Shown here: piece by piece, positions 34,715 to 61,965 of the stretch | Layout of the letters: each line of letters begins with the position of its first letter | Numbering within the stretch: the first letter of the stretch is position 1 | DNA from: an uncultured Bacteroidota bacterium | Lineage (GTDB): Bacteria; Bacteroidota; Bacteroidia; Flavobacteriales; Flavobacteriaceae | DNA length: 64,000 nucleotides | Reading direction: 5' to 3' | Assembly (NCBI GenBank): GCA_902557655.1 | Contig: CACEAZ010000003.1 | Span: forward strand, 1 to 64,000 | Notes under the pieces: model-generated | Told to the model about the DNA's origin: nothing | The model's database searches: none | Seen by the model: the letters and a program-made list of their open reading frames with translations, nothing else | Program-made: the position numbers and the translations under genes

Positions 34715-35599
34715 ATGAAAAATATCTCTGTCATAGGTTGTGGTACAATGGGTAATGGTATCGCACAAACATTTGCTCAGTTTAATTATAATGTTATTCT
34801 GTATGATATAAATAAAGAGGCTTTAGACAAAGCTATACTTGTAATTAATAAGAATCTTGGAAGAATGGTCATAAAAGATGTTATTTCTGATGAAAAAAAG
34901 AATATTACGCTAAAAAATATAACTACAACTACAGATTTTAACATGATAAAGAAGTCTGATTTGGTTATTGAAGCAGTAAGCGAAAATCTAGATTTAAAAA
35001 AGTCAATTTTTAAAAAATTAGACTTAGAATGTGATAAAGATACAATCTTAGCTTCAAACACGTCCTCAATTTCTATAACCGAATTAGCAGAATCTACTAG
35101 TAGAAAGGATAAAGTTATAGGGATGCATTTTATGAACCCAGTACCCATTATGAGCCTAGTGGAGATAATAAACTCAAAGCATACAAGTACATTAACTACG
35201 AAAATAATTATTGAAATATCTGAAAAACTAGGAAAAATTCCCTTAACAGTTAATGATTATCCTGGTTTCATTTCTAACAGAATCCTCATGCCAATGATTA
35301 ATGAAGCAATCGAGGCATTGGAAGATGGAGTGTCAACTGTTAAGAACATTGATGGAATTATGAAATTAGGTATGGGTCATCCAATGGGCCCCTTACAATT
35401 AGCTGATTTAATAGGTTTAGATGTTTGTAAATCTATACTAGAGGTTATGTTTAAAGGAATTAATAAAAACAAATACGTGCCAAATAAATTACTAATTGAA
35501 CTTGTAGAAGATGGAAAGCTTGGGGTTAAATCTGGAGAAGGTTTTTATGATTATAGTAACTCAAAAAAAGCTGAAACAATTTCAAAAAGATTTTGTTAA
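34715..35599 (+). CDS. 3-hydroxyacyl-CoA / 3-hydroxybutyryl-CoA dehydrogenase
   Basis: ISVIGCGTMGNGIAQTFAQFNYNVILYDI, HFMNPVPIMSLVEII, GFISNRILMPMINEA; start refined. Confidence 0.95.
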   Translation: MKNISVIGCGTMGNGIAQTFAQFNYNVILYDINKEALDKAILVINKNLGRMVIKDVISDEKKNITLKNITTTTDFNMIKKSDLVIEAVSENLDLKKSIFKKLDLECDKDTILASNTSSISITELAESTSRKDKVIGMHFMNPVPIMSLVEIINSKHTSTLTTKIIIEISEKLGKIPLTVNDYPGFISNRILMPMINEAIEALEDGVSTVKNIDGIMKLGMGHPMGPLQLADLIGLDVCKSILEVMFKGINKNKYVPNKLLIELVEDGKLGVKSGEGFYDYSNSKKAETISKRFC

Positions 35600-36249
35600 T
35601 GATTACGGAAAGATTAAATAAAATCAACAACGAAATACCATCAAACGTAAAATTAATTGCTATTTCAAAAACTAAGTCTATAGAAGAAATTTTACAAGCT
35701 TACGATCACGGTCAAAGAATATTTGGTGAAAACAAAGTTCAAGAAATGACCGAAAAATACAGTTCGCTTCCTAAAGATATTAAATGGCATATGGTAGGTC
35801 ATGTTCAAAGAAATAAAATCAAATATATGGCCTCGTATGTGGACTTGATACATGGAATTGATTCTTTTAAATCATTAAGAACAATTAATAAAGAAGGTGA
35901 AAAAAATAATAGGATTATAAAATGCCTATTACAGCTAAAAATATCAAGTGAATCAACGAAATTTGGCTTAGAAATTGACGATTTAGAAAAAATCATTCAA
36001 TCTCCGGAATATAAAAATTTATCTTTTGTAAAAGTATGCGGCATAATGGCAATGGCAAGTTTTTCCACTGATTTAGAATTAGTCAGAGAAGAATTTAATA
36101 TTGCGAGTAAATTATATAATAGAATAAAAAAAGTAAATAGTGATTTTCAGATATTATCTATGGGAATGAGTAATGATTACGAAATAGCCATTGAAGCTGG
36201 AAGCAATATGATTAGAATTGGAAGTTTAATTTTTGGTTCAAGAAATTAA
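35599..36249 (+). CDS. YggS family pyridoxal phosphate-dependent enzyme
   Basis: LIAISKTKSIEEI, FGENKVQEMTEKY, WHMVGHVQRNKIKY, LSMGMSNDYEIAIEAGSNMIRIGSLIFG. Confidence 0.95.
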   Translation: MITERLNKINNEIPSNVKLIAISKTKSIEEILQAYDHGQRIFGENKVQEMTEKYSSLPKDIKWHMVGHVQRNKIKYMASYVDLIHGIDSFKSLRTINKEGEKNNRIIKCLLQLKISSESTKFGLEIDDLEKIIQSPEYKNLSFVKVCGIMAMASFSTDLELVREEFNIASKLYNRIKKVNSDFQILSMGMSNDYEIAIEAGSNMIRIGSLIFGSRN

Positions 36250-36254
36250 TAAAT

Positions 36255-36788
36255 ATATACTCGGTAGTAGACATAGAGACAACAGGTGGTAAATTCAGTG
36301 AAGAGAGAATCACTGAAATAGCCATATATAAAATGGATGAATATGAGAATATATCTAAATTTCATAAGCTTATCAATCCTCAAAAAAAAATTCAACCTTT
36401 TGTTAAAAAACTAACAGGCATTACGGATGAGATGCTTTATGATAAGCCCCTATTTTCTGATTTTGCAAAGGAAATAGATGATTTAACAAAAAATAGCATA
36501 TTTATCGCCCATAATGTAAATTTTGATTACCGAGTTTTAAAAGAGGAATTTAAAAGAATTGGTCTGAATTTTAAAAGAAAATCTCTTTGTACAATAGAAT
36601 TATCTAAATCCGTTTTTCCGCATGAAAAATCTTATAGTTTGGGGAAACTTGTTTCTAGTTTAGGCATTGAAATTAAAAATAGACATAGAGCAGATGGAGA
36701 TGCAATGGCAACTTTAAAACTTTTTAAAAAAATATGTTTAAACCTTAATAAAAAACAGTTAGAAAAATTCATTAAAATTAATCAATGA
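36255..36788 (+). CDS. DnaQ-like 3'-5' exonuclease (exonuclease domain protein) with apparent non-canonical start
   Basis: Frame is open upstream of the track's ATG (36333) and encodes ExoI motif IYSVVDIETTGGKFSEERITEIAIYKMDE; ExoII IFIAHNVNFDYRVL; ExoIII HRADGDAMATLKL. No ATG/GTG/TTG upstream in frame; start probably ATA at 36249 or 36255. Confidence 0.85.
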   Translation: MYSVVDIETTGGKFSEERITEIAIYKMDEYENISKFHKLINPQKKIQPFVKKLTGITDEMLYDKPLFSDFAKEIDDLTKNSIFIAHNVNFDYRVLKEEFKRIGLNFKRKSLCTIELSKSVFPHEKSYSLGKLVSSLGIEIKNRHRADGDAMATLKLFKKICLNLNKKQLEKFIKINQ

Positions 36789-59817: not shown

Positions 59818-61245
59818 ATGAATGTAAATGCTAATTCTGTGTGGTCTGACTGTCTTAAGTTTATTAAGGACAACATTCAACCACAAGCTTACAAGACATG
59901 GTTTGAGCCAATTAAAGCAATTAAATTAGCAGACAAAGTTTTAAGCGTTGAAGTTCCAAGCAAATTCTTTTACGAGTGGCTAGAAGAACATTATGTGAAG
60001 ATTTTAAAGGTAGCATTACAAAAAACACTTGGTGATGATGCCAAACTTGTTTACATAATTAAAATGGAAAACACTTTTGGGAATTCACAAGCATTCACTG
60101 AAAAGATTCCTAGCTCAAACAGTTCTTCCTTTTCTGCGCAAAATGCAACAACTCCTATTAATAGATCTGTTCCAGAATTAAAAAACCCGTTTATTATTCC
60201 GGGAATAAAAAATGTTAAAGTTGAGTCTCAATTAAATCCTAATTACACATTTGAAAATTTCTTAGAAGGTGATTCAAATAGGCTTGCAAGAAATGCAGGG
60301 ATAGCTGTAGCTAACAAGCCAGGTGGAACTTCATTTAACCCATTTTTAATATTTGGTGGAGTTGGATTAGGAAAAACTCACTTAGCAAATGCAATTGGGA
60401 TCGATATCAAAAAAAGGTATCCTGAAAAAACTGTTCTTTACACAACCGCTGAAAAATTTACTCAACAATATATTGAAGCTGTAAAAAAGAATAATAGAAA
60501 TGATTTTATTTACTTCTATCAAATTATTGATGTTTTAATCATCGATGACATTCAATTCTTTTCTGGTAAACCCGGAACACAAGATGTGTTTTTCCACATA
60601 TTTAATCATCTACACCAAAACGGTAGACAGGTGGTATTGACAAGTGATAAGCCACCTGTTGACATGCAGGATATAGAGCTTAGGTTATTATCCAGATTTA
60701 AGTGGGGTCTTTCCGCTGAGCTACAGAAACCAGACTTTGAAACTCGAGTTTCAATTTTAAAAAATAAACTTTACCGTGACGGAATTGAAATGAACGAAGA
60801 TGTGATTCATTACGTTGCAAAAAACATCAAAAGTAATGTTCGTGAATTAGAGGGTGCGATAATTTCACTAATAGCTCAGGCTTCTTTTAACAGAAAAGAA
60901 ATTAACATTGCATTGGCAAAAGAAATTATAGAAAAATTTGTAAAAAACACTAAGAGGGAAGTATCTATTGATTACATTCAAAAGATTGTTTCTGACTATT
61001 TCCAAATGGATATACCTACTCTTCAATCAAAAACAAGAAAAAGACATATTGTACAGGCTAGACAACTTGCAATGTTTTTTGCAAAGAAATATACCAAAGC
61101 TTCATTAGCAAGTATCGGCTCTCAAATTGGAAAAAGAGATCATGCAACTGTTCTGCACGCTTGTAAAACTGTAGATAATTTATCCTCAACTGATAAGCAA
61201 TTTAGAAAGTTTGTTGAAGATCTTGGAAAGAAACTTTCTGTTTAA
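59818..61245 (+). CDS. dnaA: chromosomal replication initiator protein DnaA
   Basis: N-domain WSDCLKFIKDNIQPQAYKTWFEPI; NPFLIFGGVGLGKTHLANAIG; DVLIIDDIQFF; C-domain RDHATVLHACKTV. Confidence 0.98.
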   Translation: MNVNANSVWSDCLKFIKDNIQPQAYKTWFEPIKAIKLADKVLSVEVPSKFFYEWLEEHYVKILKVALQKTLGDDAKLVYIIKMENTFGNSQAFTEKIPSSNSSSFSAQNATTPINRSVPELKNPFIIPGIKNVKVESQLNPNYTFENFLEGDSNRLARNAGIAVANKPGGTSFNPFLIFGGVGLGKTHLANAIGIDIKKRYPEKTVLYTTAEKFTQQYIEAVKKNNRNDFIYFYQIIDVLIIDDIQFFSGKPGTQDVFFHIFNHLHQNGRQVVLTSDKPPVDMQDIELRLLSRFKWGLSAELQKPDFETRVSILKNKLYRDGIEMNEDVIHYVAKNIKSNVRELEGAIISLIAQASFNRKEINIALAKEIIEKFVKNTKREVSIDYIQKIVSDYFQMDIPTLQSKTRKRHIVQARQLAMFFAKKYTKASLASIGSQIGKRDHATVLHACKTVDNLSSTDKQFRKFVEDLGKKLSV

Positions 61246-61257
61246 ATAGCCTCCACA

Positions 61258-61965
61258 ATCAAAGGAAACTTATATATAATACCTAGTTCAATTAGTGAAA
61301 TCAATCTCTTTCCAGAGATCAATAAAACGATAATAAACTCTATTGATTATTTTGTAGTAGAGAATATTAAAGTGTCCTTTGGCTTTGTTAAAAAAATATG
61401 TCCAGATAAAATTCTAAATTATGAGAATTTTGAATTACTTAATGAAAAAGATCCAGTTCAAACTTCACAACAACTTAAGCCATGTTTAGAAGGTAAAGAT
61501 ATTGGCCTGCTTACGGATGCAGGTTGTCCAAATATAGCAGATCCCGGATCTAAATTAATTCTCCATGCACATCAAAACGATATCAATGTCATACCTCTTG
61601 TTGGCCCATCCTCTATTTTACTTGCAATGATGAGCTCTGGCTTAAATGGAAATAACTTTAGTTTTAACGGGTATTTTCCTGTAGATAAAAATGAGAGAAT
61701 AAAGAGGATAAAACAATTAGAGATTTTATCAAAAAATCATAATCAATCACAAATTTTTATTGAAACCCCTTATCGGAATAAAGCATTATTTGAAGATTTA
61801 ATAAAAAGTTTAAATGACAACACATTGTTGTGTGTAGCAACAAACATAGGTTCTAAAAAAGAAAGGATTAAGACTTTATCAGTTAATGAATGGAAAAGAA
61901 AAAAATTGAATTTAGAGAAAGATCCTACAATTTTTATATTTCACTGGGGAGATCTTATTTTTTAA
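61258..61965 (+). CDS. RsmI-like / tetrapyrrole methylase-fold SAM-dependent methyltransferase with apparent non-canonical start
   Basis: GLLTDAGCPNIADPGSKLILHAHQNDINVIPLVGPSSILLAMMSSGLNG; FIETPYRNKALFEDL. Frame is open from the dnaA stop: (IAST)IKGNLYIIPSSISEINLFPEINKTIINSIDYFVVENIK; the track GTG start (61372) would drop this conserved N-terminus. Confidence 0.87.
   Translation: MKGNLYIIPSSISEINLFPEINKTIINSIDYFVVENIKVSFGFVKKICPDKILNYENFELLNEKDPVQTSQQLKPCLEGKDIGLLTDAGCPNIADPGSKLILHAHQNDINVIPLVGPSSILLAMMSSGLNGNNFSFNGYFPVDKNERIKRIKQLEILSKNHNQSQIFIETPYRNKALFEDLIKSLNDNTLLCVATNIGSKKERIKTLSVNEWKRKKLNLEKDPTIFIFHWGDLIF

Follow-up and report, generated by a model that had tools for sequence, protein, structure and literature searches.

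Where does translation of the gene behind dnaA begin? The window, which is the whole stretch of 64,000 nucleotides that we analysed, comes from contig C3 of an assembly of 1.386 Mb (45 contigs, 81.7% complete). Past the stop codon of dnaA, the same reading frame stays open between 61246 and 61965, without an ATG, GTG, or TTG until the GTG at 61372. The features of this locus are:

59818..61245, forward strand: dnaA coding sequence, ending in the TAA stop at 61243-61245 (509 bits to TIGR00362)
61246..61257, forward strand: the 12 nt, ATAGCCTCCACA, that separate dnaA from the methyltransferase gene
61258..61260, forward strand: ATC, the proposed start codon of the methyltransferase (ATC, ATT, or ATA in all 18 congeners, never NTG)
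61258..61965, forward strand: gene for a predicted SAM-dependent methyltransferase, a 1WYZ-like paralogue of RsmI (235 codons)
61372..61374, forward strand: GTG, the first NTG downstream of that ATC (NTG is not conserved here among congeners)

We propose that this frame encodes an intact, conserved methyltransferase that is translated from an AUH codon (AUU, AUC, or AUA), here the AUC at 61258, with formylmethionine from the ordinary initiator tRNA. We give this reading, which is built on comparisons of sequences, a probability of about 0.83.

The product of the frame matches TP_methylase, and the match falls 3' of GTG 61372. The best match with a solved structure is 1WYZ (residues 5–229 align to residues 5–233; E = 3e-51); 5HW4, which is RsmI from E. 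coli, is more distant, with an alignment that begins at residue 3. Given this full-length similarity, we identify the protein as a predicted SAM-dependent methyltransferase of the 1WYZ type. The initial annotation had called it RsmI-like. This is right as to the family: the protein shares its fold with RsmI (the 16S rRNA C1402 2'-O-methyltransferase) and with the 1WYZ-type paralogue. But it is closest to 1WYZ, and it scores only 86.2 bits against the RsmI model TIGR00096, whose cut-off is 167.9. A distinct gene on contig C11 of the same genome, which has an ATG start, is a better candidate for RsmI.

We compared the locus across 18 genomes from one genus, including the window's own (68–100% protein identity); one of these assemblies is a single-cell genome, AG-390-P14. 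The codon that aligns with the family's initiator methionine is ATC in nine of the genomes, ATT in seven, and ATA in two, and it is followed directly by AAA GGA or AAA GGT. The ATH codon holds this position in all 18 while the preceding gap varies, both in length (10, 11, or 12 nt from the dnaA stop) and in sequence (the gaps are unrelated). With these gap lengths, every possible frame relation to dnaA occurs (0 in four genomes, +1 in 12, and +2 in two), so conservation of the protein begins at the ATH codon. The full frame of 235 codons is present in every congener. Across the first 41 codons, the differences are mostly synonymous (dN of 0.10–0.26, with dS saturated or above 1); by this measure, purifying selection acts on the gene from codon 2. 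In 15 homologues from other genera, an ATG lies a few codons 5' of the same N-terminal motif.

A mixture of ATA, ATT, and ATC without ATG would also fit an internal isoleucine codon, so our case depends on the absence of any upstream codon at which translation could start. An in-frame NTG upstream of the ATH is absent from all 18 congeners. The initial annotation's observation that the frame has no canonical start before GTG 61372 is correct, and all 18 congeners share the lack of an NTG there. That annotation had named relatives with ATG at 61246 or 61258 as what would count against its reading: no congener has NTG at the 61258 codon, and ATG is seen in the 15 homologues from outside the genus. 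On the genus tree, the third base of the ATH codon must have changed at least four times in the methyltransferase, as well as at least three times in an exonuclease gene and at least once in hemW (both described below), and none of these changes is to G. This turnover without G supports constraint on the codon, although an internal isoleucine codon would look alike and the pattern does not by itself prove initiation. Taking the comparison as a whole, we infer that initiation takes place at the AUH codon, and we regard the pattern of codons as real and not as an error.

Could translation begin instead at the ATA at 61246, which abuts the dnaA stop, or at some other codon of the gap that is not NTG? 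We consider this unlikely, although the four congeners whose gap is 12 nt do have TAAATA in frame. At congener locus L005, an ATA follows the stop but does not share the frame of the methyltransferase, and most congeners have no ATA there; only the 61258 codon is common to all. We rejected ATA 61246 since it is neither shared nor in frame across the congeners. The initial annotation had offered both ATA 61246 and ATC 61258, and it is the second that stands.

An internal NTG start, which would give a shorter enzyme, is less probable still. GTG 61372 does exist in the window, and it precedes the TP_methylase match. But the position of the first NTG after the ATH differs among the genomes (codon 38, 40, 59, 60, 76, 84, 113, or 123), and in the two congeners where it is at codon 113 or later (113–123), half of the domain would be lost. 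Furthermore, purifying selection holds across the first 41 codons, which align to the N-termini of 1WYZ and 5HW4. We rejected this alternative because the positions of the NTG codons are not conserved. With the first NTG as far in as codons 113–123 in some congeners, internal starts would not be functional.

Slightly more doubtful again is a DnaA-methyltransferase fusion, formed by readthrough of the dnaA stop (an idea of the initial annotation) or by a nearby frameshift. The frames are continuous over the TAA in the window and in three congeners, and most of the other congeners have an A-rich run, GGTAAAAAACTC, near the end of dnaA, in the −1 direction that would be needed. But no single recoding event fits all of the frame relations (0, +1, and +2), and outside the genus the relatives carry the methyltransferase as a gene of its own with an ATG start. 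The variable frame relation among congeners led us to reject the fusion.

That the gene is decaying, or that the assembly or the sequencing is in error, can practically be dismissed: the window's assembly is incomplete (81.7%, in 45 contigs), but the feature is common to 18 separate assemblies, including the single-cell genome, all 18 have a full-length frame under purifying selection, and the G-to-A errors that had been suspected do not suit a codon that is usually ATC or ATT.

We also searched for other genes of this kind by comparing stop-to-stop frames from about 98% of the window's genome with those from 1.18 Mb of congener G004. Among 861 ortholog pairs, we listed the frames that are conserved 5' of the first NTG and judged them by eye; shadow ORFs, which dominated the initial scan, were filtered out. 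This yielded five real genes with an AUH-type start: infC, the methyltransferase, a DnaQ-like exonuclease, murQ, and hemW. A scan of this kind had been advised by the initial annotation. The five are a minimum for these two genomes because a gene whose AUH start has an NTG nearby would be overlooked; 738 of the ortholog pairs share an NTG within the first 60 aligned codons. The additional features are:

35575..36249, forward strand: yggS-like gene upstream of the exonuclease, given as a stop-to-stop ORF (TAA at 36247-36249)
36255..36257, forward strand: ATA, 5 nt past the stop of the yggS-like gene, where the exonuclease is proposed to start
36255..36788, forward strand: gene for the DnaQ-like 3'-5' exonuclease, the second AUH-start gene in the window
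G000:C14:7779-8909: hemW, with a proposed ATA or ATC start
C3:69835 (also given as C3:69856): murQ, with a proposed ATT or ATA start, separated in the window's genome from the stop before it by 11 nt
C3:72819: infC, with an AUH start of a known class

The aligned start of the exonuclease is ATA, ATT, or ATC at all 16 congener loci, which bears out the companion case (ATA 36255) in the initial annotation. An in-frame TTG or GTG occurs inside the end of the yggS-like gene at 10 of these 16 loci, and only the other six exclude an upstream NTG outright. For hemW, the start is ATA or ATC at 17 of 17 congener loci. For murQ, the aligned codon is ATA or ATT in 13 of 13 congeners, and no murQ with an ATG start was matched in any of 21 genomes from the genus. 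Comparison among congeners thus supports the claim that initiation at AUA or AUC near an upstream stop occurs in more than one gene of this lineage.

We noticed that the exonuclease has about 177 amino acids in the window and that its best homologues outside the genus, within the family, sit in open frames some 360–470 amino acids long. The exonuclease of this genus seems to have lost its C-terminal part. Separately, the stretch 5' of the first ATG of ORF 4117 (G000:C15:12222-12330; G004:C2:80147) is near-identical in two congeners, with 17 of 18 residues the same in the frame that we read; this could be a conserved leader or a regulatory RNA.

Is the selection of start codons relaxed across the lineage, as the initial annotation had suggested? 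Five genes in 861 pairs speak mildly for this, whereas the translation machinery looks ordinary. The acceptor-end mismatch and the GGG:CCC anticodon stem are both present in the initiator tRNA, the decoding-site (P-site) sequence and the CCTCC tail of the 16S rRNA are normal, and IF3 is present, ordinary, and 83–100% identical within the genus. Because these components look ordinary, nothing in them points to a general loss of start fidelity, and we rejected altered translation machinery as an explanation.

Instead, we propose that ribosomes completing dnaA would halt 12 nt 5' of AUC 61258, and that some of them, or 30S subunits newly recruited to this junction with its weak structure, would start at the AUH codon without a Shine-Dalgarno sequence. 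The output would be low and would be bound to the translation of dnaA and to the level of IF3. The mRNAs of Bacteroidetes are without Shine-Dalgarno sequences, and initiation in F. johnsoniae is favoured by A at −3 (PMC6847099). The methyltransferase's ATH codon has A at −3 in 16 of the 18 congeners. Folding energies at the junction are −2 to −8 kcal/mol (the background mean is −7.9), and an Rfam search for a structured RNA at the junction gave only a sub-threshold match. Scored against the context of the genome's own ATG starts, the window's ATC site falls at the 6th percentile; hemW, murQ, and infC score well.

IF3 represses non-canonical starts, as established for infC and sigR, and it discriminates against infC-type AUH starts (PMC5472188). 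Because IF3 discriminates against AUU, AUC, and AUA, we expect the output of the methyltransferase to be low. The distance from the upstream stop is 12 nt for the methyltransferase, 5 nt for the exonuclease, 11 nt for murQ, 2 nt for hemW, and 21 nt for infC. The short gaps in four of these genes are suggestive only, because about 38% of all same-strand neighbours in the genome have gaps of −20 to 15 nt. From these considerations we infer coupling to upstream termination, an effect of IF3, and low expression.

The AUU, AUC, or AUA start of infC is conserved across species and is also found in the window's genus. But the product of infC is the discriminating factor, and the gene is autoregulated, while the other genes described here encode enzymes. 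A second precedent is sigR from Streptomyces, whose start is GTC in 32 of 34 cases and GTT in the other two, and which gene callers misannotated (PMC5472188). In both sigR and our genes, a non-canonical start is held across a genus with turnover at the third base. Unlike our genes, sigR uses GTC or GTT, has an extensive ribosome-binding site, and was tested experimentally; the starts described here are AUH codons in a phylum where no Shine-Dalgarno sequence is expected, and they are proposed from sequence comparison. In Staphylococcus, cvfC1 starts with AUU and ccpN starts with AUA, both with extended Shine-Dalgarno motifs; AUU and AUA starts reduce expression, and the start of cvfC1 is conserved among staphylococci (PMC13009471). 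An AUU start of pcnB from E. coli is cited in the same paper (Binns and Masters 2002, cited in PMC13009471). Like our genes, these are genes other than infC with AUU or AUA starts, but the Staphylococcus sites need the extended Shine-Dalgarno motif, and our sites lie 2–12 nt after an upstream stop without one. Our literature search, which did not reach most subscription papers, found no report of AUH starts in Bacteroidetes.

Very few bacterial genes are known to have conserved AUU, AUC, or AUA starts, and several of those rely on strong Shine-Dalgarno sites. What sets this case apart is that several enzyme genes in one genus appear to have genus-wide AUH starts without the use of Shine-Dalgarno sequences, with recurrence at hemW across the family. 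With several AUH genes just after stops in a lineage without Shine-Dalgarno sequences, termination-coupled tolerance of non-AUG starts and output set by IF3 become testable. In practice, gene callers that consider only NTG will miss or shorten genes with AUH starts.

It is conceivable, if rather doubtful, that Bacteroidota without Shine-Dalgarno sequences keep infC, hemW, murQ, the exonuclease, and the 1WYZ-type methyltransferase as a low-expression AUH regulon that is controlled by IF3 and coupled to termination, with AUH recurring at hemW throughout the family.

In 400 genomes of Flavobacteriaceae, strict patterns found ATH at the start position of hemW in 29 genomes (22 genera) and NTG in 203 (143 genera). 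The window's genus accounts for three of the 29, and the other 26 are spread over about 21 genera. One of these 26, G026, was the only one read for the absence of an upstream NTG: its hemW begins within TAA GCC ATC TCA GGA, with no NTG upstream. ATC is the commonest ATH codon at hemW, in 24 of the 29 genomes.
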